This document shows, one piece after another, positions 7,013-55,242 of a DNA stretch of 64,000 nt. A program made the translations under genes and the position numbers. Under the pieces are notes generated by a model. The model made no database searches, was not told the origin of the DNA, and saw nothing but the letters and a program-made list of their open reading frames with translations. Source of the stretch: Desulfosporosinus youngiae DSM 17734. GTDB lineage: Bacteria; Bacillota; Desulfitobacteriia; Desulfitobacteriales; Desulfitobacteriaceae. Numbering within the stretch: the first letter of the stretch is position 1; the number at the start of each line of letters is the position of its first letter. The stretch is from NCBI RefSeq assembly GCF_000244895.1, contig NZ_CM001441.1, forward strand, positions 4,244,198-4,308,197, in the 5' to 3' direction.

Positions 7013-7140
7013 TCATACACCCCCAATATAATACCCCTCACAATTATTATTTTATTGGCTATGTAATAAACATACCCCTGGCTATTACTCTGGTAAGCTG
7101 AGATTTTGGGAAAAGAATAGCCGAAATAAGCACATTCGTA

Positions 7141-7416: not shown

Positions 7417-7528
7417 TACAACCACTCCGTTCCTTACATTCCTTACTTTTTATTATATCACATATTATGCTTAATCAACCATTTATTTACATACTATTCC
7501 AAACACTTTTGCATGGTATTTCATAGTC

Positions 7529-7621
7529 ACGGTAGATGCGCCAGTTTACATGTTCATAGAACTTGCTTAGACTGCTGTAGTTTCCAATCAGTCCATAGTA
7601 GTTGTTATACCCATCCAAATT
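7529..7621 (-). pseudogene. Group II intron maturase C-terminal relic
   Basis: The minus strand reads NLDGYNNYYGLIGNYSSLSK followed by FYEHVNWRIYR, which matches the thumb/maturase region of group II intron reverse transcriptases (usual form G(H/Y)xNYYGxxGN...F). The frame then runs out, and no catalytic RT domain, domain V or intron boundary is visible. A small fragment only. Confidence 0.6.
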
Positions 7622-7641
7622 CGTCACTGGTGACGTATTTG
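7616..7641. repeat. 26-bp palindrome, copy 2
   Basis: Same sequence as 6483-6508 with one mismatch in the right arm (GACGTATTTG). Overlaps the start of the maturase relic. Confidence 0.65.
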
Positions 7642-7751
7642 AAAGTATGCCCTCCCTGTTATCAGGACAAATTTATCGATGAATACGGATTCTTCCCATA
7701 AACGCACTTCCATTTCCTCGATATCGACCTTCTGCTATCCACCTTCCTAAT

Positions 7752-7819
7752 AAAAAATAAAAACCACAAAGTCGACTCAATCGAGTCAAACCTTCATGGT
7801 TTTTCAAGACCTTCGGGGC
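7752..7819 (-). ncRNA. Recurrent three-way-junction/terminator RNA element, copy 1 (operon end)
   Basis: Begins 10 bp after the stop codon of the 7829-8584 methyltransferase. Stems on the minus strand: P2 AAACC/GGTTT around ATGAA, P3 GACTC/GAGTC, and the 3' arm CTTTGTGGTT followed by a T-rich run. The distal arm CCCCGAAGG can pair with the 3' arm. This is the only copy at the end of an operon and the only one with ATGAA instead of ATGGA in the P2 loop; it probably serves as the operon terminator. No promoter precedes it. Confidence 0.75.
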
Positions 7820-7828
7820 CATAATATT

Positions 7829-8584: not shown

Positions 8585-8652
8585 GAGCTATTCCTCCTCT
8601 TTTTGTGACATCAGAGCCTTTCCCGGACTGACTTCCCCTCAATCGAGCCGCC

Positions 8653-12175: not shown

Positions 12176-12210
12176 TTCTTATCCTTTCTTTGTGCGCTAA
12201 GGCACCCTTA

Positions 12211-17179: not shown

Positions 17180-17935
17180 CTATTGTTTTTCCCCGACCAC
17201 CATAAACATTGGGGTGGCGCCGTAGAGCAATTGTTCCGGTTCGCCCCACAGTTCCCCCGTCACATCCTTCTCCCAGGAAACCGCAAACCCCATCTGCCTC
17301 AGGGCCTCGATATCCCAGTCCGGGCGCAGCCGGCTGCTGAGAAACATTTGGTCGATGTACTCTTCATCCGCCTTATTGGTTTTGGGCGGTTCTCCGTACT
17401 TTTTGCGGTACAAGGCTGCATTTTTGTCGTTCTGCTGCCGGATCTCTTCATCAAAGCAGTACCTGCCCCAGTTCGCATCAAAAATCAGCAGTTTCCCTCC
17501 CACCCGCAAAACCCGCTGCCACTCACGGTAGGCCGCCGAAGGGTCATACAGCGTCCAGGTGACATTGCGATTGACAATCAGGTCAAAGCTGTTGTCCGGA
17601 AAATCCAGAGAATGACTATCCATTTGATAAAAGCCGGCCTTTACGCCGGCAACCGCAGCATTGTTTCTGGCCTCGGCCAGCATTTTCTCTGTACAGTCAA
17701 CAGCCGTCAGGCGATGACCCGCTTCCCCGAGAATGATGGGAAAGAAGCCGGGGCCGGTTCCAATATCCAGAATCTCCAGGCACTCTTGCCTGGGAGCGTT
17801 AGCCAGTATCTTGTTTCTCCAGGCATCTTTGCGGAACGAAGAAAGCTCGTTTTTTATCAGCCCGCTGTATCCCTCCGCTGAACCCGTCCAATAGTTCTCA
17901 ATAGTCTGTTGTAGTTCCTCTTCTTTGGCGGCCAT
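17180..17935 (-). CDS. Class I SAM-dependent methyltransferase, first gene of the operon
   Basis: The ATG at 17935 has GAGGAG eight bases upstream, giving 251 residues, the same length as its paralogue at 7829-8584. An earlier start at 17962 lacks a ribosome site. Motif I ILDIGTGPGFFPIIL, strand-2 acidic residue in LTAVDCTEKML, then DLIVNRNVTWTLYDP. It is the gene nearest to RNA element copy 2 and its sigma-H-like promoter. Confidence 0.85.
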   Translation of the reverse strand: MAAKEEELQQTIENYWTGSAEGYSGLIKNELSSFRKDAWRNKILANAPRQECLEILDIGTGPGFFPIILGEAGHRLTAVDCTEKMLAEARNNAAVAGVKAGFYQMDSHSLDFPDNSFDLIVNRNVTWTLYDPSAAYREWQRVLRVGGKLLIFDANWGRYCFDEEIRQQNDKNAALYRKKYGEPPKTNKADEEYIDQMFLSSRLRPDWDIEALRQMGFAVSWEKDVTGELWGEPEQLLYGATPMFMVVGEKQ

Positions 17936-17984
17936 CAAAACACTCCTCTTTTTTAGTTTCAATCATCAAATAACCTTGTCCTTT

Positions 17985-18074: not shown

Positions 18075-18120
18075 GTTAATTATTTTTCATCAGCTGTCGG
18101 AATTTCGACAATTTGCTTAA

Positions 18121-18190
18121 AATAAAAAAGACCACGAAGCAGACTCTAGTGAGTCAAACCTCCATGGTCTTTGCAAATACCTTCGTGGTT
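18121..18190 (-). ncRNA. Recurrent three-way-junction/terminator RNA element, copy 2
   Basis: Minus strand. P1 is a perfect 9-bp pairing, ACCACGAAG with CTTCGTGGT. P2 AGACC/GGTTT closes loop ATGGA, and P3 GACTC/GAGTC closes loop ACTA. P2 and P3 abut. A T run follows the 3' arm. The alternative pairing AGACCA with TGGTCT uses the same 3' arm. It starts about 20 nt after the predicted start site of the sigma-H-like promoter. Confidence 0.8.
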
Positions 18191-18217
18191 CTGCATTTAA
18201 AATAATTTTGTACATTG

Positions 18218-18245
18218 ATTCTACAAACTCTTCATAGATTCCTGC
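18218..18245 (-). promoter_or_regulatory. Sigma-H-like promoter for leader copy 2
   Basis: -35 GCAGGAATC, 12-nt spacer, -10 GTAGAAT. This fits the Bacillus sigma-H consensus RNAGGAWWW-N11-12-RNNGAAT. Equivalent sites precede six other element copies. Confidence 0.7.
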
Positions 18246-18339
18246 TTAATGTCTTATTTTTAAAATAAATTTTAAAGTTATAATTTTAACTGAACAAGTT
18301 TACTTTAAGGCACTGTCTTTCACTTCCTCTCAGTATAGA

Positions 18340-18392
18340 AACAAAAAAACCACAAAGTTGACCCTAATGAGTCAAACCTCCATGGTTTTTGC
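18340..18392 (-). ncRNA. RNA element copy 3, lacking the distal arm
   Basis: Retains AAACC/GGTTT (loop ATGGA), GACTC/GGGTC and the 3' arm CTTTGTGGTT followed by a T run. The upstream distal arm is replaced by an unrelated GGGCGGAAGC, and no sigma-H-like site precedes it. It sits between the cobalamin riboswitch terminator and the copy-2 promoter, so it would act on messages started at the riboswitch promoter. Confidence 0.7.
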
Positions 18393-18520
18393 TTCCGCCC
18401 TCTCAGAATATCCCCATCATTTTATACCTTAACAGAACCGTCGAAACGCGAAGGACCCATTCGTTTTTATAATTTCTGTTATCATCCGTTACGCGCCCTC
18501 ATCTTTCCCCTTTTTAAATT

Positions 18521-18594: not shown

Positions 18595-18800
18595 CTATCG
18601 CTCGTAGAGTTACTGGTTCATTAACAAAGGCAGGTCTTCTGACTTTGGTTCATTTAAATACATCACGCCTTCCCGGTATGAACCAGTGGCCTATTGTATG
18701 AAACATCTCCCCATTACAGTGGCGGGACCGTGCAGGACTTTAACCTGCTTCCCTTTTAAGCCGTACTTTAAGTACACGCACCTTTATTCTCAAATATTTA
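18595..18800 (-). promoter_or_regulatory. Adenosylcobalamin riboswitch 1
   Basis: On the minus strand the core is clear: GGTCCCGCCACTGTAATGGG, then GCCACTGG...CCGGGAAGGC, and the B12 box AAGTCAGAAGACCTGCC at about 18629-18645. The downstream terminator implies cobalamin-dependent transcriptional attenuation of the methyltransferase/importer operon 17935-7829. Confidence 0.9.
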
Positions 18801-18910: not shown

Positions 18911-20473
18911 TTAATATTTTAGATTTTCAACTATATCAAGTATTTTCTCTTCAGCGATGAGGCTGGAGACATGCTCAATATAAGGCTGTAAAAATTCATC
19001 CTTTTCGAGAAAAGGAACATTCTTTCTGATTAGATTTTTCACCGCTAAAGTTGTGGGGGATGGCAAAAGTTCTGCAATAAAATCTTGTGCTTGGGCAGCA
19101 CACATTAATTCAATCGCTAAAACATATTTCAAAAGGTTTACAGTTTTATAGGCCTTTAATGCAGCATTATAACCCATACTCGTATAATCTTCCTGAAATG
19201 CACTTGTAATGGCGTTATCAATTGTTGCTGGATGACTAAATATTCTCATTTGACCTACGATACCCGCTGACGTATATTGCGGAATCATGAAGCCGTGATT
19301 TACGCCATTATTTCTAATTAAAAAGGCGGGAAGCTCACTTACATGCGGGTTAACCAGTCTATGGGTTCTTCTTTCTGACATTTTTGCCATCATCGTCATG
19401 GCCATGCATAAAGAATCAGCTTCAATTCCAACAAATGAACCATCAGCATTACATCCCATCAATACCTGTCCGTCATCTTCGCTGTCTGAAAATATTAAAG
19501 GATTATCACAACAGGAGTTCATTTCAGTAAGAACTGTTTGATATGCATCTTTGATTGTCTTCTTAGCTGCCCCGTGTACTTGAGGAACATTTCTTAATGA
19601 CGTAGCATCCTGTACTCTGTAGGATTTGTATTGGGCAATTATCTCACTATCTTTCAATATATTTCTAATGTTTTCAGCAGTATTTATTTGGTCTTCATGT
19701 GGTCTTACAGCATGAATCCTTGGGTCATAAGCTTCTAGGGTTCCTTTTAATACTTCTAAAGACATGGCTGCAGAGATGTCTGCTGTTTTCGAATAATTAA
19801 TTGCATCATATAATGTTAAAGCAGTTAGTGCTGTAATTGATGTCGTTCCAGAAACAAGGGATAAGCCCTCTTTGCTTGCTAAAGCGATTGGTTTCATACC
19901 CGCCTCTTCAAGAACTTTATCTCCGGGCAGTAAATTATCGTTAAACCAAGCCTTACCTAGCCCAATTAGAACGAGGCCAACGTGAGCTTCCGGCCCTAGA
20001 TAGCCTACGGAACCATCTTTTGGTGCAAACGGGATAATGCCATTATTGAGAAGTCCTGCTATTTGCTCGAGAGTTTCCATCCGAACTCCGGCATAAGCTT
20101 GTCCCAGGTTTAAAAGCATCATCAGAAGTATTCCCCTTACTACTTCTTTGTCCAAAGGTTCTCCTACCGAGGTGGCATGGGACAGGAGTGTGTTTCTTTG
20201 TAAAAGCGCTGAGTCTTCAGGACATACTGCTTTATTCCAATTTTCTCCCAATCCGGTTGTGACACCATAGATAATTCTGTTTTCATTCGTAAATTTATCC
20301 ACTAAAAATCGGGAACGATTAACTCTATCACGGTATTGAGCCGAAAACTCTACCTTGGCATTATATCGTACGACTCCGACAAATTGGTTTAACTCGATCG
20401 GGCTATCTCCTAATATCACTTTACTGATACATTTAGCTCGTTTTAGCGTATTTTCCAGACTATGCGTATGCAT
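18911..20473 (-). CDS. Histidine/aromatic ammonia-lyase-fold protein lacking the MIO tripeptide
   Basis: 520 residues, ATG after AAGGAGAGAATTC. Most lyase landmarks are present: IYGVTTGLG (Tyr 69), LLQRNTLLSHA, QDATSLRNVPQVHG, EMNSCCDNPL, FQEDYTSMG. At the site where HAL/PAL/TAL enzymes have GSVGASGDLAPLAH, this protein reads GSVGYLGPEAH (residues 154-164). Ala-Ser-Gly, which cyclises into the electrophilic MIO group, is replaced by Tyr-Leu-Gly, and three residues are missing. MIO chemistry is therefore not expected. The gene follows a cobalamin riboswitch alone, so the function is probably tied to cobalt or B12 status. I do not know a characterised relative with this change. Confidence 0.85.
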   Translation of the reverse strand: MHTHSLENTLKRAKCISKVILGDSPIELNQFVGVVRYNAKVEFSAQYRDRVNRSRFLVDKFTNENRIIYGVTTGLGENWNKAVCPEDSALLQRNTLLSHATSVGEPLDKEVVRGILLMMLLNLGQAYAGVRMETLEQIAGLLNNGIIPFAPKDGSVGYLGPEAHVGLVLIGLGKAWFNDNLLPGDKVLEEAGMKPIALASKEGLSLVSGTTSITALTALTLYDAINYSKTADISAAMSLEVLKGTLEAYDPRIHAVRPHEDQINTAENIRNILKDSEIIAQYKSYRVQDATSLRNVPQVHGAAKKTIKDAYQTVLTEMNSCCDNPLIFSDSEDDGQVLMGCNADGSFVGIEADSLCMAMTMMAKMSERRTHRLVNPHVSELPAFLIRNNGVNHGFMIPQYTSAGIVGQMRIFSHPATIDNAITSAFQEDYTSMGYNAALKAYKTVNLLKYVLAIELMCAAQAQDFIAELLPSPTTLAVKNLIRKNVPFLEKDEFLQPYIEHVSSLIAEEKILDIVENLKY

Positions 20474-20734: not shown

Positions 20735-20930
20735 ACCCCCTATCGCTCGTAGAGTTATTGGTTCATTCAACAAAGGCAGGTCTTCTGACTTTGGTTCATC
20801 AATGCTTTACGCCTTCCCGGTAGGACTAGTGGCTATTAGTATAAAACATTTCCCCATTACAGTGGCGGGACCGTGCAGAATTTTACCTGCTTCCCTTTTA
20901 AGCTGTACTATGTAGTACGCGCACCTTTAT
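20735..20930 (-). promoter_or_regulatory. Adenosylcobalamin riboswitch 2
   Basis: Same core as riboswitch 1 on the minus strand: GGTCCCGCCACTGTAATGGG, CCGGGAAGGC, and B12 box AAGTCAGAAGACCTGCC at about 20775-20791. It precedes the MIO-less lyase-fold gene, with about 190 nt between its terminator and that start codon. Confidence 0.9.
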
Positions 20931-20952
20931 TTTCCAATATACAATTGTTTTA

Positions 20953-21229: not shown

Positions 21230-22957
21230 TTACGCGATCTTCCACCCCTTGGCCACCTCCTGTGCTTTCCAGAGCTGTGCATACAAGCCTCCCTTCTCAA
21301 GGAGCAATGAATGGGCACCCTGCTCTACAAGACTCCCCTGATCAAAAACAAGAATTTGATCTGCGGTCTGAATGGTACGCAAATGATGGGCAATGACAAG
21401 CACTGTCCGTCCCTTGGCCAGAGCACTGACGGCTTTTTGGATCTTGGTCTCGTTCACAGGGTCCACATTGCTGGTGATCTCGTCCAACACAACAATAGGT
21501 GCATTTTTAAGGAAGGCGCGGGCAATGGAAATACGCTGTTTTTGACCACCGGATAAGCCCACACCGTTTTCCCCCACTCTTGTATCATATCCTTCCGGCA
21601 GCCCGGCGATAAAGTCATGGATTTGTGCCTTTTTTGCCGCCTCGATAACCTGTTCCCGTGTTGCGTTCCGGTTGCCCAGCCGGATGTTTTCATAGATACT
21701 GTCAGCGAAGAGCACGACATTCTGCATGACAATACTGATATTGGAAAGCAGCTCGTCATAGTCCATATCCCGGATATCCACACCACCTACCTGGATGGAA
21801 CCTCTTCCAATGTCCCAGAAGCGCAGCAGCAAATTGGTGATCGTGGTCTTCCCGGAGCCGGAGGGACCTACCAATGCCGTCAAGCTTCCCTGAGGCAGCT
21901 TAAAATTGATATTTTTCAGCGCGAACTCATCGGTTTCATAGGAAAAATCAACCTTTTCATAAGTGATATCAAAAGCGCTTGTTTTTCTTGGAAAAACTGC
22001 CGCCGGTACAGTGGGGGCCTCCAACACCCCTTCCACCCGTCGATAGCTGTCCTTTACCTGCAGGTAGTCCAGCCAGTACTTCTCAATTTTCCGGAAAGGC
22101 TTGTAAAATTCCACACTGAAAATGATAAATATCAATAGTGTTTCAAAGTTAAGGCTTCCTTGATGCAGCATTAATGCTCCTACTATAATCATTACCGCAT
22201 AGGAAAGCTCGAAGAAAAATGAGAATCTGCCGACATAGCCCGCAACTGTTTTAGATTGCCTCCGGGCACTTACTCCGAATCTTTCGATGCTGCTCCGCAG
22301 TTTTGTTTCAAAGGCCGCATTTTCGGAAAATGCTTTCATCAGGGGAATTCCTTTGGTGTATTCGACAAACAAGCTGACCATATCCGCCAGATCGTCATTG
22401 GTTTTCTCCTGCAGTTTGAGATTTTTGCGGAAACCCATTCCCAGCATCAGCACCGCTAAAGGCAGCAGGGATACCATGGCCAACCCCATCCAAGGACTTT
22501 TCATAAATAACCAGATGCCCAGGAGCAGCGCAATGAGGATATCAGAGAACATAATGGAGAAGAAATGCCCCACAACACCCTCCAAATTATCCACATCCTT
22601 ATGGATGATAGTACTGATTTTGCCCAGGCGCTCTTTGCTGTAAAAGCCAAGTGAAAACTGTTTAAGCCTGTTTATAATGCTTTTCCTTACAGTAAGCACT
22701 ACATCAAAACCGGCAAAGTGCTTGGACATATCCGCCACCACAGCCATCAGTGTTTTGAGCAGCACGATGCCAAACAGAGCAATCCATAGCCCGGTCAGTT
22801 CTCTGCCGTCTTTATAGGTATGAATATTATTGAGCATATCAATCACAAGATACATGAGATAGGCCCCTAAAAGGCCGGCAGCAGTGAAGGCCAGAGTGGC
22901 TGTTGCAATCAATGCTTTTCCTTTGCCCGTCACTACCGAAAATAGTTTTCTGATCAT
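21230..22957 (-). CDS. Half-size ABC transporter with exporter fold (second pair)
   Basis: About 575 residues. The ATG at 22957 follows GGAGGTATCGGC and forms an ATGA overlap with the upstream half-transporter. Walker A GPSGSGKTT, signature LSGGQKQRI, Walker B IVVLDEITSNVD, H-loop AHHLRT. The membrane domain occupies about the first 310 residues. It would pair with 22954-24696 as a heterodimer controlled by the upstream MarR protein. Drug export or YbtPQ-like chelate import are both possible. Confidence 0.85.
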   Translation of the reverse strand: MIRKLFSVVTGKGKALIATATLAFTAAGLLGAYLMYLVIDMLNNIHTYKDGRELTGLWIALFGIVLLKTLMAVVADMSKHFAGFDVVLTVRKSIINRLKQFSLGFYSKERLGKISTIIHKDVDNLEGVVGHFFSIMFSDILIALLLGIWLFMKSPWMGLAMVSLLPLAVLMLGMGFRKNLKLQEKTNDDLADMVSLFVEYTKGIPLMKAFSENAAFETKLRSSIERFGVSARRQSKTVAGYVGRFSFFFELSYAVMIIVGALMLHQGSLNFETLLIFIIFSVEFYKPFRKIEKYWLDYLQVKDSYRRVEGVLEAPTVPAAVFPRKTSAFDITYEKVDFSYETDEFALKNINFKLPQGSLTALVGPSGSGKTTITNLLLRFWDIGRGSIQVGGVDIRDMDYDELLSNISIVMQNVVLFADSIYENIRLGNRNATREQVIEAAKKAQIHDFIAGLPEGYDTRVGENGVGLSGGQKQRISIARAFLKNAPIVVLDEITSNVDPVNETKIQKAVSALAKGRTVLVIAHHLRTIQTADQILVFDQGSLVEQGAHSLLLEKGGLYAQLWKAQEVAKGWKIA

Positions 22958-24696
22958 GCCGATACCTCCTTCGTTTGCTTGATTTCCCAATGATCCACTT
23001 CATTCTGTGCTTTCACCATGTCCGAGTAAAGCGGGCAGGTATCAAGCAGCTTGCTGTGCTTGCCGCTGGCAGCCATACACCCCTGATCCATAACAACAAT
23101 CTGATCGGCATTGACAATGGTGTTCAGGTGATGAGCGATAACAATCAATGTCTTGCTCTTGCTCAGGTTACTGATGGCCTCTTGAATCAGATGCTCATTA
23201 TAGGGATCAATGGCAGCAGTGGCCTCATCCAGGATAATAATCGGTGCGTTTTTCAGTATGATACGGGCAATGGCAATGCGCTGTTTTTCGCCGCCGGAAA
23301 GCTTTGCGCCGCCCTCGCCGGCCATAGTATCATAACCCTTTGGCAAATTGCTGATCATTTCGTGAATACGCGCCTTTTGGGCAGCTTCCACAACCTCTTC
23401 CCTGGTTGCCTCCCCACTTCCGATGAGGATATTTTCCGCAATGGTTGCATTGAACAGGAAACTTTCCTGCTGCACGATGGAAACAAGACTTGACAAGTCT
23501 CTTTCGTTCATTTTGTCGATGCGTTTCCCTCCAATGGTTATAGTTCCCTGTTCGGCTTGCCAAAAGCCCATGATGAGATTGGCGATGGTGGATTTACCCG
23601 ATCCGGAGGAGCCCACAATAGCGCTGATGGTATTTTGCCTGAAGGTAAGGTTAACCTCCTTGAGGGCCTTATTCTTTTCATCATAACTGAAGGTCACATT
23701 CCTTAATTCAATATCCCCAGGTCGAAGCTCCTTGTCATGGGAATAATCGGGCCGCGGCTCTTCTCCTAAAATTGTGACAATGCTTTCCGCCGACTTGTTC
23801 AGCATAATATCCGAATGATGGAAAGACATATATTTAATTAGTGCAGCGGAAAACAAATTAGAAAGGATTAAGGCCAGGATAAAGCGTATAATTGAAAGCT
23901 GTCCGTTGATCATCAGCCCTGCGCCGACAATAACCACCAAGATAAGCCCGATTTCCAGCAGCATCTGAACTATACTGAGAGGTACGGAAATCGTATACAT
24001 GATTTTTTTGACCCAAGTGATGTAGGCTTGCATACGCGAAAGTACTTTACCTGTTTTTTGCTCATCGGTAGAAAAGGCTTTTACTGCAGGCATCGCTCCA
24101 ATGTATTCAATTAAATCCTCCGACATTTCCTTCGTGCTCTGGATATAGCGTTTCAGCGTCTTGCCCCATAGTTTATAGATGAATTTTTGGTAAATGGCCA
24201 TTACCGGAAAAGGTGTAATCAGAGCAAGCGCCAAACGCCAGTCGATTACCAGCATGCTGACGGCTGCCAGCAGGGGAAGCAGTAGAGTGATCTTGATTTC
24301 CGGCTGGGCATGAGCCAGATAAATTTCAATCTGTTCTACATCATGATTGATAATATTGGTCAAATCTCCTGTCTTGCGCTTTTGGAAAAAGCTAAGGGGC
24401 AGTTTTTTGAGATGGCTCACAATATCAAGCCGGATCTCTGCAAGGGAACGGTAAGCCGCATCGTGGGCACGCCCGATACCTATGGCATAAAAGATAGCCT
24501 TAACAGTCTGCGAAATACAAATACCTGCTCCCACCATTGCAATTTTCTGTAGTGATACCTGTCCCGATATAAACAAGTTAACCAGCCAGACTACCAAAAA
24601 GGTAGTGGCAATACCGGACAATACACTTACGAACATATAGATATCCAATGCTTTGTTCTTTGACTTAATTTGTTTGGTCAGTGTTTTTGTATTCAA
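22954..24696 (-). CDS. Half-size ABC transporter with exporter fold, partner of 21230-22957
   Basis: 580 residues from a TTG start with GGGGG upstream. Walker A GSSGSGKST, signature LSGGEKQRI, Walker B IIILDEATAAID, H-loop AHHLNT. First gene of the pair after the MarR regulator. A hairpin and T-rich run in the 145-bp gap before it may attenuate readthrough from the regulator gene. Confidence 0.85.
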   Translation of the reverse strand: MNTKTLTKQIKSKNKALDIYMFVSVLSGIATTFLVVWLVNLFISGQVSLQKIAMVGAGICISQTVKAIFYAIGIGRAHDAAYRSLAEIRLDIVSHLKKLPLSFFQKRKTGDLTNIINHDVEQIEIYLAHAQPEIKITLLLPLLAAVSMLVIDWRLALALITPFPVMAIYQKFIYKLWGKTLKRYIQSTKEMSEDLIEYIGAMPAVKAFSTDEQKTGKVLSRMQAYITWVKKIMYTISVPLSIVQMLLEIGLILVVIVGAGLMINGQLSIIRFILALILSNLFSAALIKYMSFHHSDIMLNKSAESIVTILGEEPRPDYSHDKELRPGDIELRNVTFSYDEKNKALKEVNLTFRQNTISAIVGSSGSGKSTIANLIMGFWQAEQGTITIGGKRIDKMNERDLSSLVSIVQQESFLFNATIAENILIGSGEATREEVVEAAQKARIHEMISNLPKGYDTMAGEGGAKLSGGEKQRIAIARIILKNAPIIILDEATAAIDPYNEHLIQEAISNLSKSKTLIVIAHHLNTIVNADQIVVMDQGCMAASGKHSKLLDTCPLYSDMVKAQNEVDHWEIKQTKEVSA

Positions 24697-37116: not shown

Positions 37117-37929
37117 TCAGTTCACATGCCAATACATAACCACAATGGTGGTGTTACTGACCTCATGTACGATACCGTCAACCGCAATGCTTTCGAGATA
37201 CTCTCTAATCGTTTCCCTGTCACTGTCCGAAAGCTCATGGGTGGAAGAAATACGGAGCGTATATTCTTTGATTGCCTCTTCCAGCGGCTGATCGTCTTTC
37301 CAAATCTGTTCCTCATATTCAAACTTCGGGCGGCCTCCGGTGCGCCACACCAAGTCAAATGCGTAGACCATCGTTTCATCCAGCGCTTTGGTGTCCTGTT
37401 CAGCCTTTACCAGTCTGTTGAGTTCGTCCAAAATCGAGTTCGTACGTCTGGTGGGTTTTACCATGATCACCCAGCCGCGGCTCGCTTCGCTGAGCTTCAA
37501 AAATGTGTCTGCGGAAACAACTGCGGGCGTCATGTGTGCGAGAACGAGATCGAATTGTTTTTCCCAGTTCTTTTCTTGCAGATTCACCGTGTGCCAGTTA
37601 TCCGCCGAAAAGCGCACCTTCGAACCTCTTTCCTTTCCCTTCTCCAGGGCTTTCTTGATCATTTCGGACGAAAAATCAGTTGCGGTCGCTTCCGCGCCCA
37701 TAGCCTCAAGTACGAAAGAGAATCTTCCTCCGCCACAGCCTACGTCCAGCGTTCTGCTTCCCTTGCCAACCATATTCTCGAGTTGGATGATCCGCATAGC
37801 AATGCTGTTTTCCACCGTGGGCAGTTCCTTTACGGAAAATTTCTCTGCCTTGCTGTTCCACCACTCCATCCCCGCTTTCAGATTGCGGAGATTCGGCTGC
37901 CACAATTCCCTAATCTTTGATATGTCCAT
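37117..37929 (-). CDS. Class I SAM-dependent methyltransferase (270 aa subtype)
   Basis: Motif I TLDVGCGGGRFSFVL, acidic strand-2 end in ATATDFSSEM, then DLVLAHMTPAV. Closest relative in the window is 52107-52928, with a shared start (I...LW...N...) and a tail that ends in an aromatic Y/W motif (VVMYWHVN here, AWIYWKA there). First gene after leader copy 4. Different subgroup from the 251-residue pair at 7829 and 17180. Confidence 0.85.
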   Translation of the reverse strand: MDISKIRELWQPNLRNLKAGMEWWNSKAEKFSVKELPTVENSIAMRIIQLENMVGKGSRTLDVGCGGGRFSFVLEAMGAEATATDFSSEMIKKALEKGKERGSKVRFSADNWHTVNLQEKNWEKQFDLVLAHMTPAVVSADTFLKLSEASRGWVIMVKPTRRTNSILDELNRLVKAEQDTKALDETMVYAFDLVWRTGGRPKFEYEEQIWKDDQPLEEAIKEYTLRISSTHELSDSDRETIREYLESIAVDGIVHEVSNTTIVVMYWHVN

Positions 37930-38011
37930 CTTAATCCATCCATTCTTTTGATATTAATTCCGAATTCTTACGCTTTTCTATCCCCTATTAATCTTTCACC
38001 TTCCTTTCAAG

Positions 38012-38084
38012 CAAATAAAAAGACCACGAAAATTGACCCCTAATGAGTCAAACCTCCATGGTTTTTGCAAACACCTACATGGCA
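38012..38084 (-). ncRNA. Recurrent RNA element, copy 4
   Basis: Minus strand: distal arm GCCATGTAGG, P2 AAACC/GGTTT with loop ATGGA, P3 GACTC with GGGGTC, 3' arm TTTTCGTGGTC and a T run. Precedes the methyltransferase at 37929. Confidence 0.8.
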
Positions 38085-38115
38085 TTGCTTCTACATCTGT
38101 ATTTTATAGTCTTAT

Positions 38116-38143
38116 ATTCTACATACATGAATAAATTTCCTTC
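38116..38143 (-). promoter_or_regulatory. Sigma-H-like promoter for leader copy 4
   Basis: -35 GAAGGAAAT, 12-nt spacer, -10 GTAGAAT on the minus strand. Confidence 0.65.
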
Positions 38144-41920: not shown

Positions 41921-41935
41921 AATTCTCCCCCCTCA

Positions 41936-42006
41936 AAAAACAAAAAACCATGAAAGCTGACTGTAATGAGTCAAACCTCCATGGTTTTTGCAAACACCTT
42001 CGTGGC
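41936..42006 (-). ncRNA. Recurrent RNA element, copy 5
   Basis: Minus strand: distal arm CCACGAAGG, P2 AAACC/GGTTT with loop ATGGA, P3 GACT/AGTC, 3' arm CTTTCATGGTT and T run ending about 15 bp before the FRG start codon. Confidence 0.8.
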
Positions 42007-42047
42007 CTTGCCCCGGCTATTTACTTGCTTTCTTGCTAATGATTAGT

Positions 42048-42074
42048 ATTCTACAATTGTTGGCAAGTTCCTGC
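42048..42074 (-). promoter_or_regulatory. Sigma-H-like promoter for leader copy 5
   Basis: -35 GCAGGAACT, 11-nt spacer, -10 GTAGAAT on the minus strand. Confidence 0.7.
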
Positions 42075-42176: not shown

Positions 42177-42203
42177 GCAGGAAATATATAAAATATGTAG
42201 AAT
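42177..42203 (+). promoter_or_regulatory. Sigma-H-like promoter for leader copy 6
   Basis: -35 GCAGGAAAT, 11-nt spacer, -10 GTAGAAT. Divergent from the copy-5 promoter about 100 bp away. Confidence 0.7.
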
Positions 42204-42229
42204 AATTAGGAAAATACATGCTAAGTTAA

Positions 42230-42300
42230 GGCTATGAAAGCTTTTGCAAAACCATGGAGGTTCGACTCTCAGAGTCGCTTTTGTGGTTTTTTTTATTTTA
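42230..42300 (+). ncRNA. Recurrent RNA element, copy 6
   Basis: Distal arm CTATGAAAGC pairs with all ten bases of GCTTTTGTGG, an extension (AAAGC/GCTTT) not seen in other copies that keeps pairing. P2 AACC/GGTT with loop ATGGA, P3 CGACTC/GAGTCG, then an eight-T run. Confidence 0.85.
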
Positions 42301-42385
42301 TCTGAGGGGAAGTGAGAACACATCGTCAACTGAGTATGAGACGGCGAAAATCCAGCCAATATTTGAGGTTATGAAAAGGAGTTGA

Positions 42386-42475
42386 AATCATGAAGAATCT
42401 GGGGAGATTTCCCGGAACGGTCAGATCAAGGAAAAAATCGAGGCCAGGATTACCTGGATGTATTGGAAAATTTAG
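42386..42475 (+). pseudogene. C-terminal scrap of a methyltransferase
   Basis: In one frame the sequence reads GEISRNGQIKEKIEARITWM then YWKI and a stop. This parallels the tail of the methyltransferase at 52107-52928 (EKISQNGFVHE...KTAWIYWKA). The rest of the gene is gone. The position, directly behind leader copy 6, is where intact methyltransferases stand behind copies 2 and 4. Confidence 0.65.
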
Positions 42476-42492
42476 AATTGTGGAGGTTCAGT

Positions 42493-44067
42493 ATGTTTAA
42501 GAAACTATTAAAAACTGTAATATCCTTGGCTCTTGCAGCCACTCTGGGGCTGACGGGCTGCACGAATTCCCAACCCGCCGCCGGCGACGGGCCACAATCT
42601 TCCGGCCCCTTGGTTATCAACCTGGAAGGAGGAGACTGGGGCTATCCCACTCCCTTCAGCCATTATTCCCGGGGGCCGGGCAGCTTTAAGATGGCCCTGA
42701 TCTTCGACAGCCTCCTGGAACGAGGGGAAAAAGGCTATATTCCCTGGCTGGCTGACAAGTGGGAGGTCTCCGGAGACGGTCTGACCTACACCTTTACGCT
42801 CAAAGACAATGTCAGATGGCAGGACGGCCGGCCTATGACGGCGGAGGATGTCAAGTTTTCCTTCGATTATTACGCGGTTCATCCCCCGGTCTCCAATGAC
42901 CTGACCATTGACAACCAAAGCTTCATTCAGTCGGTAGAAGCTACGGACGCCAAAACCGTGCGCTTTAAGGTGGAAAAACCCCTGGCCATTGTCCTGGGTA
43001 AAATCGGAAATACCCGGATTATTCCCCGCCACATCTGGGAAAGTGTAGATGACCCCCTTAAGTTCACCGCCCCTGAAGCCGCCGTCGGCACGGGGCCCTT
43101 CCTGCTTAAGGAATACAATAAGGAACAGGGTGCCTATAAGTTTGAAGCCTTTAAAGACTTCTGGGGACCGAAGCCCCTGGTGGATACCCTCCAGTTTGTC
43201 CCTGTCAGTGATCCTGTTCTGGCTTTTGACAAGGGTGAAATCGACCTAACCGGCAGTATTACTACGGATATCCTGCCTAAGTATCAAAACAGCGAAGACT
43301 ATAAGGTCCTGCAAAACCCCGGCTTTTGGGGGTATCGCCTCATTTTCAATATGGAAAAAAGGCCGGAACTCAAAGATAAGGCTGTTCGTCAAGCCTTTGC
43401 CTATGCCATCAACCGCCGGGAACTGGTGGAAAAGGTGGCCAGGAACGCGGCCGTACCGGCAAGCGCGGGCTACCTGCCTGTGGGACACCTCTGGTATAAT
43501 CCGGCAGTTAAAGACTACGAGTTTAATCTCGAAAAGGCCAGGCAGCTCCTGGCGGGCCGGACCCTTTCCGTTAAGCTCTTAACCGGCAACTCCAATGAAG
43601 AATTGCGAATCGGAGAGCTGCTCAAAATAAGTCTGGCCCAGGCCGGAATTGAACTCAGCGTTACCAGTGCGGACACTAAAACCCGGGATGCGGCCGTTAA
43701 AAAAGGCGACTATGAACTGGTTTTGAACGGCCACGGCGGCTGGGGCGGCGATGCGGACCTGCTGCGAACAAGTTATGCCAGTAAAATCACCACCAGCCAA
43801 AGTCCCTCTGCCGACGGCATCCGCGGCTACAGCAATGAGCAGCTCAACGAGCTCTGCCGGCAGCAATTGTATGAATTGGACGCTGAGAAGCGCAAAGCCA
43901 TGGTTTTCCGGATCCAGGAGCTGATCGCTGAGGAAGTTCCCCAACTTCCCCTCTACAACACCACCGGCTATGTGGTCTTCAAGCCGGCCAAGTTTGACGG
44001 CTGGAAATATATGTTCGACCATCACGAGGTAACCCACAACAAGCTCTCCTACCTGGATGTGAACTAG
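42493..44067 (+). CDS. Extracytoplasmic solute-binding lipoprotein (SBP_bac_5)
   Basis: 524 residues; ATG after GTGGAGGTTCAGT. Lipobox LGLTGCTN. Family features TYTFTLKDNVRWQDGRPMTA and GTGPFLLKEY, with FAYAINRRELV following. First intact gene of a four-gene importer (binding protein, two permeases, fused ATPases) behind leader copy 6. Ligand unknown; relatives carry peptides, nickel and metallophores. Confidence 0.85.
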   Translation: MFKKLLKTVISLALAATLGLTGCTNSQPAAGDGPQSSGPLVINLEGGDWGYPTPFSHYSRGPGSFKMALIFDSLLERGEKGYIPWLADKWEVSGDGLTYTFTLKDNVRWQDGRPMTAEDVKFSFDYYAVHPPVSNDLTIDNQSFIQSVEATDAKTVRFKVEKPLAIVLGKIGNTRIIPRHIWESVDDPLKFTAPEAAVGTGPFLLKEYNKEQGAYKFEAFKDFWGPKPLVDTLQFVPVSDPVLAFDKGEIDLTGSITTDILPKYQNSEDYKVLQNPGFWGYRLIFNMEKRPELKDKAVRQAFAYAINRRELVEKVARNAAVPASAGYLPVGHLWYNPAVKDYEFNLEKARQLLAGRTLSVKLLTGNSNEELRIGELLKISLAQAGIELSVTSADTKTRDAAVKKGDYELVLNGHGGWGGDADLLRTSYASKITTSQSPSADGIRGYSNEQLNELCRQQLYELDAEKRKAMVFRIQELIAEEVPQLPLYNTTGYVVFKPAKFDGWKYMFDHHEVTHNKLSYLDVN

Positions 44068-50007: not shown

Positions 50008-51129
50008 TTACTTTCCCAGCTCAAGCTTTTTAAAGCCGCCTAAATCCCGTTCCATTTCAGCATATAAAGGTTTGCCTAACAGAAACTGATAAATTTCATC
50101 ACTTTTCTTGAGCGGATCGATGTCTTTAAACTGTTCAGGGAAGATAATTTTTCCCGCGTAATAGGCGTCTGCAAAGGCCGTGTCGATATTGGGGTTATAG
50201 TTATTAAAGGGAATCAAGTTATAGACCCGGTCATTTTTCAAAGCCTGCAAGGATTGGTAGAAAGCAGGGTTTCTCTTATAATCTTCCGTAACCAGTGCAT
50301 ACCCTCCCGCATCAAGAAACAAGAAAACCGGATTCCAGCTGATGAGTTTTTCTTTATCAATCATAACCGTTCCGTTTTTGCCTGTTTCATCAACCACATT
50401 TTTGGCACCGATATACTTAAATGGAGGGTATTGGGCCTGAGTGCTTTCAATCCCCCGCGCTCCTTTCATGCTCACAGCACCTACATAAACCTTTGCTTTG
50501 TCCCCATCGGCAAGATCTTTCGTCCGTTCTCCCAAATCCTTTTCATTTTGTTTAAGATAGGCCACAACCTCTTGAGCCCGCTTCTCCTTGCCTATGATTG
50601 TGCCGATTATATTGATAGAACGATACAAATCCTCGCCAAAGGTCGCCAAATCGCCATAGCTTAAAGCGACGACCGGAATACCTGTTTTGGCCTGTAATTG
50701 ATCAGCCTTCTCTTTATCCACAAGGGTACAGACAAAAATCACATCCGGTTGGACGCTGACCAAGCTTTCCTCATTCGGGGCAGTATCCGGCCCGCCCTGC
50801 CCAATGCCGGGCAGTTTTTTCAGATCCGGATTAGCCATCATATAGGATCTTCCCGGGGAAGCTTTTTTTTCAGTCTCTTCGATACCCACTACCATAGAGG
50901 TGCCTTCGGCATAAGTCACCAACCGCAAGGCACCCGGTCCGATGGCCACGACCCTTTGAACAGGGACCGCCAGCTCCACTTCTCTGCCCAGCAAATCCGT
51001 AACTTTTTGTTTTTGGACCTGAGCCGTTGTGGGAACCGTTCCCCCTTCCTTCTCTGCAGTTCCTCCACATCCCGTTAAAAGGACTAAGGACATAGTTAGC
51101 GTCAAAAATAGCGCCATCAGTTTTCTCAT
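50008..51129 (-). CDS. FecB/BtuF-type binding lipoprotein
   Basis: 373 residues; ATG after GAAGGAGGATGAGTTTCA. Lipobox VLLTGCGG. First lobe VTDLLGREVELAVPVQRVVA, helical backbone, second lobe ending FLLGKPLYAEM. Family binds iron-siderophores, haem or corrinoids; the paralogue at 53702-54871 lacks its own permease and may share this one. The start codon overlaps the stop of a 40-codon FmdE-like frame (ATGA). Confidence 0.88.
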   Translation of the reverse strand: MRKLMALFLTLTMSLVLLTGCGGTAEKEGGTVPTTAQVQKQKVTDLLGREVELAVPVQRVVAIGPGALRLVTYAEGTSMVVGIEETEKKASPGRSYMMANPDLKKLPGIGQGGPDTAPNEESLVSVQPDVIFVCTLVDKEKADQLQAKTGIPVVALSYGDLATFGEDLYRSINIIGTIIGKEKRAQEVVAYLKQNEKDLGERTKDLADGDKAKVYVGAVSMKGARGIESTQAQYPPFKYIGAKNVVDETGKNGTVMIDKEKLISWNPVFLFLDAGGYALVTEDYKRNPAFYQSLQALKNDRVYNLIPFNNYNPNIDTAFADAYYAGKIIFPEQFKDIDPLKKSDEIYQFLLGKPLYAEMERDLGGFKKLELGK

Positions 51130-51248: not shown

Positions 51249-51271
51249 CGTTTCATCCGCTCCTTTAGTTT

Positions 51272-51328
51272 AATAAAAAAAGAGACCACAAAGCTGACTT
51301 CGTTATCGAAGCCAGACCTCCATGGTCT
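51272..51328 (-). ncRNA. RNA element copy 7, lacking the distal arm
   Basis: Minus strand: P2 AGACC/GGTCT with loop ATGGA (compensatory G-C for A-T against other copies), an extended P3 GGCTTCG/CGAAGTC, 3' arm CTTTGTGGTCT and T run. The distal ACCAYGAAG arm is replaced by an A/T-rich sequence. Confidence 0.75.
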
Positions 51329-51358
51329 AATTTTTAAGTATTTTGTTTAATGTTGGTA

Positions 51359-51385
51359 GTTCTACATGAATTTAAGAATTCCTTC
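51359..51385 (-). promoter_or_regulatory. Sigma-H-like promoter for leader copy 7
   Basis: -35 GAAGGAATT, 11-nt spacer, GTAGAAC on the minus strand; last -10 base differs from the other sites. Confidence 0.55.
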
Positions 51386-51425: not shown

Positions 51426-51452
51426 GCAGGAATTCATGAGATGTTGTAGAAT
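51426..51452 (+). promoter_or_regulatory. Sigma-H-like promoter for leader copy 8
   Basis: -35 GCAGGAATT, 11-nt spacer, -10 GTAGAAT. A TATAAT lies about 5 bp further on, but with no good -35 for it. Confidence 0.7.
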
Positions 51453-51473: not shown

Positions 51474-51552
51474 AGGACCATGAAGGTGTTTGTGAAGACC
51501 ATGGAGGTCTGACTTTGATAGGTCAGTTTTCTTTTGGTCTTTTTTATTTTGC
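51474..51552 (+). ncRNA. Recurrent RNA element, copy 8
   Basis: Distal arm ACCATGAAGG, P2 AGACC/GGTCT with loop ATGGA, P3 CTGAC/GTCAG, 3' arm TTTTGGTCT and T run ending about 20 bp before the FmdE start codon. Distal pairing is weak in this copy; proximal AGACC with GGTCT is strong. Confidence 0.8.
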
Positions 51553-51570: not shown

Positions 51571-52101
51571 ATGTGTCAAGAGAAAACACGGTGGGAAAAA
51601 GCAGTAGAATTTCACGGGCATGAGTGCCCAGGTCTGGCAATTGGCTACAAAGCTTGTGAAGCTGCCATCAAGAAGCTGGGCATTCGGTTTTCTGCGGATG
51701 AAGAAATTGTCTGTGTTACTGAAAACGACGCCTGCGGAGTGGATGCTGTACAGGTGATCACGGGCTGTACGTTTGGAAAGGGAAATCTTTTGTATAAAGG
51801 TACAGGAAAAATGGCCTTTAGTTTTTATAACCGGTCCAATGGCGAAAGCCTGAGAATGATCATCAAGCCTTTCAATGGTGAAATGGATCGCCGGCAGCGT
51901 CAGGAATACCTTCTGAACTCACCTGCAGCGGAACTCTTTAACTTCTCCAAGCCTTCCTTTGAGTTGCCCGAGAAAGCAAGACTCTTTAAGACCGTAATTT
52001 GCGAAAATTGCGGGGAAGGCGCTCCCGAGCACAAGATACGCATCAATGAGGGCAAAAAAGTGTGCCTGGACTGCTTCAAGGACTATTCGAGAGGGTGGTA
52101 A
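51571..52101 (+). CDS. FmdE-family protein with C-terminal zinc ribbon
   Basis: 176 residues, ATG after AAGGGGG. The FmdE core holds VEFHGHECPGLAIGYKACEA and ENDACGVDAVQVITGCTFGK, with conserved Cys/His. The tail CENCGEG...VCLDCF is a four-cysteine zinc ribbon. The family is named for formylmethanofuran dehydrogenase subunit E but is widespread in bacteria that lack that enzyme, where it is suspected in metal or molybdopterin handling. Translationally close (5 bp) to the following methyltransferase. Confidence 0.85.
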   Translation: MCQEKTRWEKAVEFHGHECPGLAIGYKACEAAIKKLGIRFSADEEIVCVTENDACGVDAVQVITGCTFGKGNLLYKGTGKMAFSFYNRSNGESLRMIIKPFNGEMDRRQRQEYLLNSPAAELFNFSKPSFELPEKARLFKTVICENCGEGAPEHKIRINEGKKVCLDCFKDYSRGW

Positions 52102-53036: not shown

Positions 53037-53639
53037 TCATCTTTTTCTTCCCGACAAGCAATAACGCTGAGGCACATCTTCAAGGGTAATAGACTCAAAA
53101 CCCGCCTCAGTAAAAATAGTCTGCATAACTTCCTCCTCAGGCAACAAACAGTTCTCAACTGCACCTCCTAGAGAGGCGTGCAGCTCATTAATGTACTCCC
53201 TGCTATGGGGATGCATTACGGTAACTCGTCCCCCGCGTCTCAGCACACGAGCCATTTCCTGAGCGGCACGCCTCAGATCATCAAAGTGCGGAAACGCCGA
53301 GTTGCACACAACCTCATCCACAACTTGGTCCGCTAAAGGAATTGCCTCTGCAGCTCCCTCCAAGAACTCTAAATTAGTCCACTGATACTTCTTTCGGGCT
53401 TCAGCCAGCATCTGGGGAGCAAAGTCTATGGCCACTACCGCTCCGGAGGAACCAACGGCGTCCATCAACATTGGAATGAGCACTCCGGTACCTGTTCCCA
53501 GATCGAGCACCTTACTGCCCTGTGATAAACCAAGTTCTGACACCATATTTTGCAAGCGGATGATTACCTCATCTTTGATAAGGGTATCCCACTTCGCTGC
53601 TTTCTCGTCGAAATAGGCTTTTTTAGGCACAACTGCCAC
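53037..53639 (-). CDS. Class I SAM-dependent methyltransferase (UbiE-like)
   Basis: 200 residues; GTG start at 53639, or the GTG three codons later, which has AAGGTGG upstream. Motif I VLDLGTGTGVLIPML, VVAIDFAPQML, then VVCNSAFPHFDD. A different subgroup from the other four methyltransferases. It follows the orphan binding-protein gene by about 60 bp and shares its leader (copy 9). Confidence 0.8.
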   Translation of the reverse strand: MAVVPKKAYFDEKAAKWDTLIKDEVIIRLQNMVSELGLSQGSKVLDLGTGTGVLIPMLMDAVGSSGAVVAIDFAPQMLAEARKKYQWTNLEFLEGAAEAIPLADQVVDEVVCNSAFPHFDDLRRAAQEMARVLRRGGRVTVMHPHSREYINELHASLGGAVENCLLPEEEVMQTIFTEAGFESITLEDVPQRYCLSGRKR

Positions 53640-53701: not shown

Positions 53702-54871
53702 TTACGGTTGAGTTAATTCGAGTTTTTTAAACCCACCGTAATCCTCAGCCATTTGTTCATAGACAGGTTTACCTAAAAGAAAGGTATAGATCTCCTCACT
53801 TTTCTTGACGGGATCGATATCCTGAAATCTTTCCGGGAAAATCACTTTCCCGGCATAATAAGAATCTGCCAAGGCAGTATCGATGTTTGTGGTATAAAAA
53901 TTATAGGGAATCTGGCCGTAAACCTGGCCGTTCTTGACTGCACGCAGAGCCTGATAAAATGACGGGTTCTTCTGCGCGTCGGCAAGCACTTTGCTGTAAC
54001 CGCCTTCATCAATAAAAAGAATGTCGGGGTCCCAGCTCACAAGTTTCTCGCGTTCAATCATCAAGCTGCCGCTTTTTCCGGTTTCATCCACAACATTGCG
54101 CGCTCCGATGTTTACAAACGGCGGATACTCGGCCTGAGTGCTTTCAATACCTTGAGTTCCTTTCACTCCTAAAGCTCCAACATAGACCTTAGGTTTATCA
54201 ACGTCTGCAATCCCCTTCGTGCGCTCTCTCAAATCCTCTTGACTTTTTTTAACATAGTTAATGACTTCTTTCGCTCTCTGTTCAGTTCCGATAACCTTCC
54301 CGACCAGTTCTAAAGAGCGATAGATCTCTTCCTCATTAAAGGTTGCCAATGGCCCATAACTCAAGACAACAACAGGAATCCCGGTTTTTTTCTGCAGCTT
54401 ATCTGCTTTAGCCTTGTCCACCAGATAAGCTATAAAAATAACATCGGGCTTGACACTCAGTAATGCTTCTTCATCCGGCACAGTGTCTATTCCGCCCTGC
54501 CCAATTGTCGGCAGAGCCTTCAATTCCGGATAGGCAAACATATACGGCCTTCCCGTCGGCACTTTCTTTTCCATATCCTCAATTCCAACCACCAGATCAG
54601 TTCCCTTAGCATAAGCAACCAGCCTTAACGAACCTGGTCCAAGGGCTACAATACGTTGAGCCGGAACCTTCACGTTCACTTCCCGGCCAACCAGATCAGT
54701 GATTGTCTGCATTTCCGAATTACCGGTTCCCTGTGTACTTACCGCAACTTTGCCTGTCTCCGACTTGTTGCCTTCGTTAGCAGTTTTAACCGCTGAACAA
54801 CCCGCTAAGAGCAGTCCTACAAGCAACAAACTGAGAAACCACACGCTTCTCTTCAAAAGCACCCTACTCAT
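53702..54871 (-). CDS. FecB/BtuF-type binding lipoprotein, without its own permease
   Basis: 389 residues, ATG after GAAGGGGG. Lipobox LLLAGCSA. Close paralogue of 50008-51129 throughout (IVALGPGSLRLVAYAKGTDL; FLLGKPVYEQMAEDYGGFKK). No permease or ATPase gene in the operon, so it probably shares the 48160-49991 transporter, perhaps with a different ligand. Confidence 0.88.
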   Translation of the reverse strand: MSRVLLKRSVWFLSLLLVGLLLAGCSAVKTANEGNKSETGKVAVSTQGTGNSEMQTITDLVGREVNVKVPAQRIVALGPGSLRLVAYAKGTDLVVGIEDMEKKVPTGRPYMFAYPELKALPTIGQGGIDTVPDEEALLSVKPDVIFIAYLVDKAKADKLQKKTGIPVVVLSYGPLATFNEEEIYRSLELVGKVIGTEQRAKEVINYVKKSQEDLRERTKGIADVDKPKVYVGALGVKGTQGIESTQAEYPPFVNIGARNVVDETGKSGSLMIEREKLVSWDPDILFIDEGGYSKVLADAQKNPSFYQALRAVKNGQVYGQIPYNFYTTNIDTALADSYYAGKVIFPERFQDIDPVKKSEEIYTFLLGKPVYEQMAEDYGGFKKLELTQP

Positions 54872-54966: not shown

Positions 54967-55104
54967 TTAATAATACCTAAAAACCATACCTTGCCTCTTG
55001 CTCATTTCCAAGAAACCTTCTCTGGTCGGAAATATCCCCATTGCTGAAGATTTCTTAAACCCGGCATCAATCAGTGCGCCATTCCTTTCACTCCATTTCT
55101 CCAT
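54967..55104 (-). pseudogene. 45-codon relic after leader copy 9
   Basis: ATG frame reading MEKWSERNGALIDAGFKKSS then AMGIFPTREGFLEM and on to a stop; no ribosome site. Related to the relic at 17985-18074 (RNG...LIDxGFK). Probably the scrap of a deleted methyltransferase-like gene. Confidence 0.4.
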
Positions 55105-55107
55105 TCA

Positions 55108-55178
55108 TAAAAAAAAGACCACAAAGCTGACCCTAAATGGGTCAAACCTCCATGGTCTTTGCAATACCTTCATGGTTT
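55108..55178 (-). ncRNA. Recurrent RNA element, copy 9
   Basis: Minus strand: distal ACCATGAAG pairs with CTTTGTGGT (nine pairs, two G-U). P2 AGACC/GGTTT with loop ATGGA. P3 GACCC/GGGTC, a compensatory change from GACTC/GAGTC. Long T run. Confidence 0.85.
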
Positions 55179-55214
55179 CGCCGACAAATTATTTTCTGGT
55201 TTTTTTTACATTAA

Positions 55215-55242
55215 TTTCTACAAACTCTTCGCAAATTCCTGC
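55215..55242 (-). promoter_or_regulatory. Sigma-H-like promoter for leader copy 9
   Basis: -35 GCAGGAATT, 12-nt spacer, GTAGAAA(T) on the minus strand. A long stretch is shared with the copy-2 promoter, including GAAGAGTTTGTAGAA. Confidence 0.65.

Follow-up and report, generated by a model that had tools for sequence, protein, structure and literature searches.

The RNA repeated across this stretch of DNA looks, from its sequence and its neighbours, like a new on/off leader placed before nickel/cobalt uptake genes in many anaerobic bacteria, and we put at roughly 60% the probability that it is a transcription attenuator for nickel/cobalt acquisition. The computed evidence consists of the sequence of the element, its two mutually exclusive pairings and their covariation, the greater stability of the terminator, the association with particular genes, the spread across the phylum and a shared promoter. 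Throughout, the window is the whole 64-kb stretch analysed (positions 4,244,198-4,308,197 of a 5.66-Mb single-contig genome), near copies are those of Desulfosporosinus and its relatives, and distant copies are the 22 from elsewhere in the phylum.

Nine leader copies in the window

The window holds nine RNA cores, seven on the minus strand (7801, 18169, 18387, 38063, 41986, 51327 and 55157) and two on the plus strand (42250 and 51497). Copy 6 (42228..42301, plus strand) displays an upstream hairpin, P1 (GGCU-AUGAA-AGCU), a second hairpin, P2 (AACC-AUGGA-GGUU), and a terminator, and stands before a NikABCDE-type operon. The NikA/OppA-type substrate-binding protein of this operon (42463..44067, plus strand) was identified by its SBP_bac_5 domain (PF00496) and the remaining genes were assigned by eye; the best NCBIfam model for the protein is nickel_nikA, below its cut-off (159.9 vs 393 bits). 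Divergent from copy 6 is copy 5 (41933..42009, minus strand), with an 8-bp P1 stem, before genes for FRG- and CGGC-domain proteins. Copy 8 (51474..51552, plus strand) has a P1 stem of 10 bp and precedes a methyltransferase gene and the gene for an FmdE-family protein with a C4 zinc finger (51571..52101, plus strand; PF02663, PF01258). Copy 7 (51271..51343, minus strand), in which the scan found no P1, precedes FecB/CD/E-type genes, the FecB-type substrate-binding protein being encoded at 50008..51129 on the minus strand (PF01497; CD and E by eye).

The remaining copies are all on the minus strand. Copy 4 (38009..38086), without a P1 by scan, precedes a gene for a SAM-dependent methyltransferase (37117..37929, minus strand, domain match), a flavodoxin-like gene and FecB/CD/E-type genes (Fec by eye). 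Copy 9 (55104..55179) lies before a FecB-type gene (53702-54871, by eye) and a methyltransferase gene (53037-53639, domain match), while its nearby P1 is irregular and the scan returned a remote site only. Copy 2 (18117..18192) has a P1 with a 9-bp stem and the loop C[ACGAA]G and is followed by a SAM-methyltransferase gene (17180-17962, domain match) and a Nik-type operon (by eye). Copy 3 (18335..18410), in which no P1 was found, forms a tandem with copy 2, which follows it, and is itself preceded by a cobalamin riboswitch (18612..18800, minus strand; Rfam RF00174, 104.4 bits). Copy 1 (7749..7822), also with no P1 found, directly follows a methyltransferase-like gene, and the frame downstream of it falls outside the metal set.

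Several features of the surroundings deserve mention in their own right. The cobalamin riboswitch at 18612-18800 and another at 20758-20943, both on the minus strand, lie on either side of a gene for an aromatic amino acid lyase (18911-20473), and the former is followed by a terminator-like hairpin (by eye) and then by the tandem of copies 3 and 2. Such tandems occur again in several genomes (L069 3653/3870; L093 819/1186 and 4889/4980; L022 1143/1501; and L175). A single frame at 150-2282 (plus strand) encodes a histidine kinase (HAMP, HisKA) with a C-terminal Peripla_BP_2 domain, an odd topology that is perhaps a fused sensor. The metal island also contains two pairs of exporter-type ABC proteins, at 21230-24696 (Pfam) and 8653-12175 (by eye), and it runs past the window, with more methyltransferase and Nik-type operons and a ZnuABC-like set (by eye) at L014 1753-17893.

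Two mutually exclusive pairings

P2 has the form RRCC-AYGRA-GGUY, and its 5' arm doubles as the 5' arm of an intrinsic terminator. Across 126 aligned near copies the core, CCAUGGAGGU, is nearly invariant, with 120 to 126 of 126 sequences agreeing at each position. The 3' arm of the terminator, which is the core's partner, drifts between G-U and G-C and between U-A and U-G with pairing kept. Terminator helix cells in the near alignment are paired at 97.3, 98.6 and 90.4 percent, and 160 of them are double-change cells vs 48 in shuffles, counts that are not independent events and are inflated because the sequences are related. The model behind this alignment included P1 and the terminator but not P2. 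Among 123 distinct rows the outermost P2 pair is GC in 61, AU in 35, GU in 21, another combination in 3 and a gap in 3, with no instance of A facing C; the first P2 base and its terminator partner form GC in 75 rows, AU in 37 and GU in 7. Both the P2 pairing and the terminator pairing covary, and relatedness of the sequences inflates these counts too. The P2 loop is AUGGA in most near copies and AYGAA rather than AYGGA in 17 of the 22 distant copies, 13 of which have exactly CCATGAAGGT.

The same stretch could in principle be read as DNA, with RACCATGGAGGTY, an imperfect inverted repeat, serving as the operator of a metal repressor. The symmetry of GACC-ATGGA-GGTC and the near invariance of CCATGGAGGT in near copies are what an operator would display, but the repeat carries a terminator in a single orientation, the 3' arm of that terminator, some 40 nt off, covaries with it, and the upstream hairpins share the loop. 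We regard an operator as very improbable. A short leader peptide (AUG GAG GUY UGA, or M-E-V-stop, in many copies) was also considered and rejected, as judged by eye, because the stop codon and the downstream frame are not kept.

Folding covered each leader as far as the last base of its U-run. Copies that lacked a recognisable terminator end or formed under three P2 pairs were left out (15 of 117 near, 4 of 22 distant). The terminator stem is the minimum-energy fold in all 102 near copies scored and in 16 of the 18 distant copies scored. It is not that fold in the other two distant copies, and one of the 18 has P2 there. Forcing P2 costs a median of 9.5 kcal/mol in near copies and 8.4 kcal/mol in distant copies. 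Given this greater stability of the terminator, termination is expected unless P2 is stabilised. Judged by these folds, the leader looks like an attenuator whose default-off state would be lifted when P2 is held in place.

A further hairpin with a similar loop

Some copies also have P1, upstream of P2 and with a loop of the same type; both loops fit C[ANGRA]G. When P1 was defined as a C/U-closed [AG]NG[AG]A pentaloop on a stem of at least 5 bp with one bulge allowed, it was found in 55 of 117 near copies (2.7 in shuffles, largest 8) and in 14 of 22 distant copies (0.3 in shuffles, largest 2). C[AUGAA]G is its commonest form, accounting for 37 of the 69 P1 hairpins found. The scan gave no P1 in the other 62 near and 8 distant copies, copies 1, 3, 4 and 7 of the window among them; in the window P1 is clear in copies 2, 5, 6 and 8. 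In distant genomes P1 and P2 are separated by either 4-7 nt or about 37-57 nt.

Distribution across the phylum

A first model, built from the 12 copies initially found and searched against 120 relatives at E up to 0.001, matched 40 of the 120 genomes: the genome of the window (15 matches at that threshold), 25 of the 28 further Desulfosporosinus genomes, 11 of 16 from the rest of the family and three from outside it. In named genomes, a pattern consisting of core plus terminator was found in 41 stretches, all from Desulfosporosinus. A second model, made from 126 matches and run at E up to 1e-4 with strict filters over 398 genomes of the phylum, matched 28 genomes (the genome of the window included) belonging to 22 of 266 genera.

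Rfam 15 at its gathering cut-offs placed no family over the element in the window, in 20 of the 22 distant loci or in 12 further loci; only neighbouring known RNAs scored in these scans. In the window, raising the threshold to E up to 10 still placed no family there. Nothing alike appeared among the matches listed for open-licence literature on nickel/cobalt riboswitches and leaders.

Genes downstream and the metal

The initial annotation had described the downstream genes as metal-type importers and methyltransferases, and the gene families bear this out. With class references chosen after seeing the genes downstream of the element, 91 of 115 near copies are followed within 500 nt by a listed class and 24 are not (8 copies with less than 700 nt downstream were left out). 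The classes are CbiM (21), methyltransferase (14), CooT (14), FecB (11), FmdE (11), NikA (8), DUF3842 (4) and others. A listed class likewise follows 20 of the 22 distant copies and does not follow the other two, where six of the references come from the distant set itself (ECF-S, CobN, ZnuA, DUF4198, HycI and NikB). References from outside the distant set classed 10 of the 22; for the remaining 10, seven first genes were scanned with Pfam (HycI below its cut-off) and three were classed as ECF-S by similarity to L157 alone. As a control, 400 positions were drawn at random from 26 other loci and none precedes a listed class, a lenient comparison because these positions are random places rather than gene starts.

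Across the phylum the importers behind the element are of the CbiM, NikA, FecB and ECF types, and CooT, FmdE and methyltransferases occur there as well. Domain matches downstream include CbiM, CbiQ, FmdE with its zinc finger, DUF3842, CGGC, FRG, TrmO, a CsoR/RcnR-family repressor and CbiX, in addition to FecB-type and NikA/OppA-type proteins, methyltransferases and CooT; in the distant copies Pfam matches are to an ECF S component, CobN, ZnuA and DUF4198. In one distant genome the element and CbiM lie beside the gene for a CO dehydrogenase catalytic subunit. At another distant locus (L203 of genome G369, 6104-13183, plus strand) one RNA copy is followed by an ECF substrate component, a methyltransferase, FmdE and a NikABCDE-type operon (the substrate-binding protein by Pfam, the rest by eye), linking the ECF and Nik transporter types.

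One RNA sub-class, of which 20 copies were read (L015 6564-6642, minus; L099 4657-4743, plus; L066 4141-4224, minus; and similar), is followed by CooT after two copies by pattern and after one by eye. Many of the others combine a promoter with a strong ribosome site but lead only into a short, decayed-looking frame, and these copies are candidate decoy RNAs or leaders of lost genes.

CooT is a nickel-binding protein, CO dehydrogenase is a nickel enzyme, and the hydrogenases and CO dehydrogenases of anaerobic Firmicutes need nickel. The FecB, FmdE, methyltransferase and DUF3842 classes have no proven metal. Both the nickel_nikA and RcnR models of NCBIfam match downstream proteins below their cut-offs, and we therefore left metal specificity unassigned at the level of individual proteins. 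A Desulfitobacterium FmdE structure described in PMC2954224 has a mixed zinc/nickel site in a protein purified over nickel resin. Choosing between nickel, cobalt and another metal from the gene families alone, we infer nickel to be most likely and cobalt next.

Sigma-H-type promoters

Before seven of the copies the initial annotation had noted a bipartite promoter motif, and this was borne out. A scan of both strands of the window for AGGA-N14/15-GTAGAA returned seven sites, all upstream of an RNA core on the same strand and serving exactly copies 2, 4, 5, 6, 7, 8 and 9; copies 1 and 3 have no such site upstream. The sites are those of copy 2 (18218..18245, minus; GCAGGA-N15-GTAGAAT), copy 4 (38116..38143, minus; GAAGGA-N15-GTAGAAT), copy 5 (42048..42074, minus; GCAGGA-N14-GTAGAAT), copy 6 (42177..42203, plus; GCAGGA-N14-GTAGAAT), copy 7 (51359..51385, minus; GAAGGA-N14-GTAGAAC), copy 8 (51426..51452, plus; GCAGGA-N14-GTAGAAT) and copy 9 (55215..55242, minus; GCAGGA-N15-GTAGAAA). 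Sixty dinucleotide shuffles of the window gave a mean of 0.28 sites and a maximum of 2, and a site appeared in a fraction of 0.00055 of 20,000 draws of a shuffled 140-nt upstream region. The stricter consensus that had been proposed, RNAGGAWWW-N11/12-GTAGAAY, fits copies 4, 6, 7 and 8 but not the other three of the seven, the WWW being broken in copy 2 (ATC) and copy 5 (ACT) and copy 9 ending in GTAGAAA. The distance from AGGA to the core ranges from 56 to 86 nt, a wider spread than the similar spacing that had been claimed for most copies.

The sigma-H (Spo0H) consensus of Bacillus subtilis has the layout RNAGGAWWW-N11/12-(R)NGAAT at fixed spacing. The promoters here resemble it in their bipartite layout, AGGA-N14/15-GTMGAA, and differ from it at one position, the base two before GAAT being T here and R in the consensus. 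The spo0A gene of this genome, whose product matches Spo0A_C and a receiver domain in Pfam, has AGGA-N14-GTCGAAA just upstream. Because spo0A shows the same layout, "sigma-H-type" seems to us a reasonable and fair label for the window promoters. Of three Spo0A_C frames inspected (the genome has five Spo0A_C matches), two have no such motif upstream.

Over the whole genome there are 36 sites of the form AGGAW-N13/14-GTMGAAT, against 12 for the reversed pattern, and counting from the listing gives 18 with GTAGAAT and 18 with GTCGAAT. An RNA copy lies beside 7 of the 18 GTAGAAT sites and beside one of the 18 GTCGAAT sites, the latter before CooT at 468 kb. Among 27 motif loci, with names given by eye from the translations, sites without the RNA precede mraZ, YlbF-like, YggS-like and chemotaxis genes. 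A GTAGAAT-type promoter without the RNA also stands before another NikA/OppA-like lipoprotein gene (L107, genome position 3,243,549, minus strand; by eye).

In Desulfosporosinus and relatives, AGGA precedes GTAGAAT with at most one mismatch in 65 of 119 copies, and in all 65 the gap is 14 or 15 nt in a scan that allowed 14-20 nt. GTAGAAT is exact in 42, has one mismatch in 23 and two to five in 19, and no AGGA is in range in 35. This set arose from 129 rows, 10 of which were dropped for want of a strict core; it includes three copies with less than 70 nt upstream and at least one pair that is one copy in two records (L025/L105). By raw counts, 2 of the 22 distant copies have a sigma-H-type site and 8 have a TTGAC...TANNNT site. 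The distant copies precede the same kinds of genes. Promoter and RNA are separable: it is the RNA that looks like the conserved regulator, and the sigma-H-type promoter looks like a wiring particular to this lineage, by which many copies of the genus are driven.

These numbers bear on the original proposal of a transition-phase regulon with a shared leader, in which sigma-H would be the main control. All seven motif sites of the window serve the RNA and spo0A has the same layout, but copies 1 and 3 lack the motif, two of the 22 distant copies have it, and two of the three Spo0A_C frames inspected are without it. We consider it improbable that sigma-H is the main control. The transition-phase theme is superseded by a unifying theme of downstream nickel/cobalt uptake genes together with the RNA, and the promoter suggests one lineage's means of driving a more widespread RNA device.

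Proposed mechanism and candidate factors

For transcription attenuation we propose the following sequence of events. RNA polymerase would start at the promoter, of sigma-H type at many Desulfosporosinus copies and mostly at other sites elsewhere, and make a short leader containing P2, accompanied in some copies by a matching P1. With nothing bound, the 5' arm of P2 (RRCCAYGRAG) would refold with the downstream CUUYRUGGYY into the intrinsic terminator and the importers would be off. When the metal is scarce a factor would hold P2, together with P1 where present; the most likely candidate is an RNA-binding protein that works as a dimer and without bound metal. With P2 held no terminator would form, and importers, metallochaperones and the associated methyltransferases would be made. 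Nickel (or cobalt) as the signal, this direction of control and the protein nature of the factor are what we infer from the arrangement.

Three protein families were considered as an obligatory trans factor. An ANTAR protein is present in 18 of the 22 element genomes, a single one in the genome of the window, and ANTAR has no match in the other four (G369, G252, G410 and G448), each 99% complete. HutP is found in 18 of the 22 and in 7 of 8 genomes without an element match; the element genomes missing it are G371, G432 and G130 (99% complete) and G199 (80%). FmdE is found in 19 of the 22 and in 5 of the 8. Each was rejected in this role, being missing from some nearly complete element genomes. 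CsrA-controlled leaders present GGA in a hairpin loop. CsrA was set aside in view of the GAA loop in 17 of the 22 distant P2 hairpins and most P1 hairpins, although near P2 hairpins mostly have AUGGA.

The alternative to a protein is a protein-free riboswitch, in which loop contacts would bring P1 and P2 together around a small molecule or a metal ion. The loops are compact and strongly conserved with a variable spacing between P1 and P2, none of the three candidate proteins is obligatory, and the loci scanned gave no match to any Rfam class, all of which suits such an RNA. The difficulty lies in the logic: P2 is the anti-terminator, and a metal ligand stabilising it would turn importers on with plentiful metal, so that a ligand accumulating on starvation (a metallophore or a precursor) would be needed. 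Because bound P2 means read-through, and importers should be off if metal is plentiful, the better fit is a protein acting without metal, or a signal of starvation, and we judge a riboswitch unlikely while taking it seriously.

Our wider proposal, on which we are evenly balanced, is that the leader may represent an undescribed, phylum-wide class of RNA attenuator through which nickel/cobalt status would be sensed, the C[ANGRA]G hairpins being clamped by a new metalloregulator that binds RNA (or by a new ligand). In anaerobic Firmicutes it would take the place of NikR, and some copies, whether alone or in tandem, may be decoys or dose adjusters. In practical terms the leader offers a concrete element and points to genes that may be under its control, among them FmdE, DUF3842 and methyltransferases without an assigned role, and the C[ANGRA]G hairpins can be used as bait for finding the factor.

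Comparison with known systems

NikR, like the putative factor, controls nickel uptake genes, but it is a DNA-binding protein and was not found in 20 of the 22 element genomes, that of the window among them; the other two give borderline scores of 22.0 and 22.7 bits against a cut-off of 22. The NiCo (czcD) riboswitch also accompanies metal-related genes; in contrast to the element, which has no Rfam match in the loci scanned, it is a four-way junction that lies mostly before exporters. The mini-ykkC or guanidine-II riboswitch resembles the element in its tandem hairpins with short, ACGR-like loops and differs in loop length and in the genes controlled, and again Rfam placed no match over the element in the loci scanned.

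A parallel in overall plan is with the ANTAR-controlled antiterminators of eut, nas and ami, which, as PMC3369931 describes them, consist of two hairpins with hexanucleotide loops that carry A1 and G4, the second hairpin being tied to an intrinsic terminator. An ordinary ANTAR response regulator, such as EutV, NasR or AmiR, acting here as antiterminator would account for two short hairpins tied to a terminator with loops that start with A, and for the ANTAR protein in 18 of the element genomes. The pentaloops C[ANGRA]G, with G at position 3, nevertheless depart from those hexaloops, P1 was not found in every copy, and metal-uptake genes lie downstream. ANTAR is also unlikely as a general factor because the four 99%-complete element genomes have no match, and we give this explanation very little weight. 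Likenesses of design between the element and the ANTAR leaders, going by PMC3369931, are the two small hairpins with matching loops in those copies where P1 was found, the second hairpin tied to an intrinsic terminator, the variable linker and the several copies per regulon.
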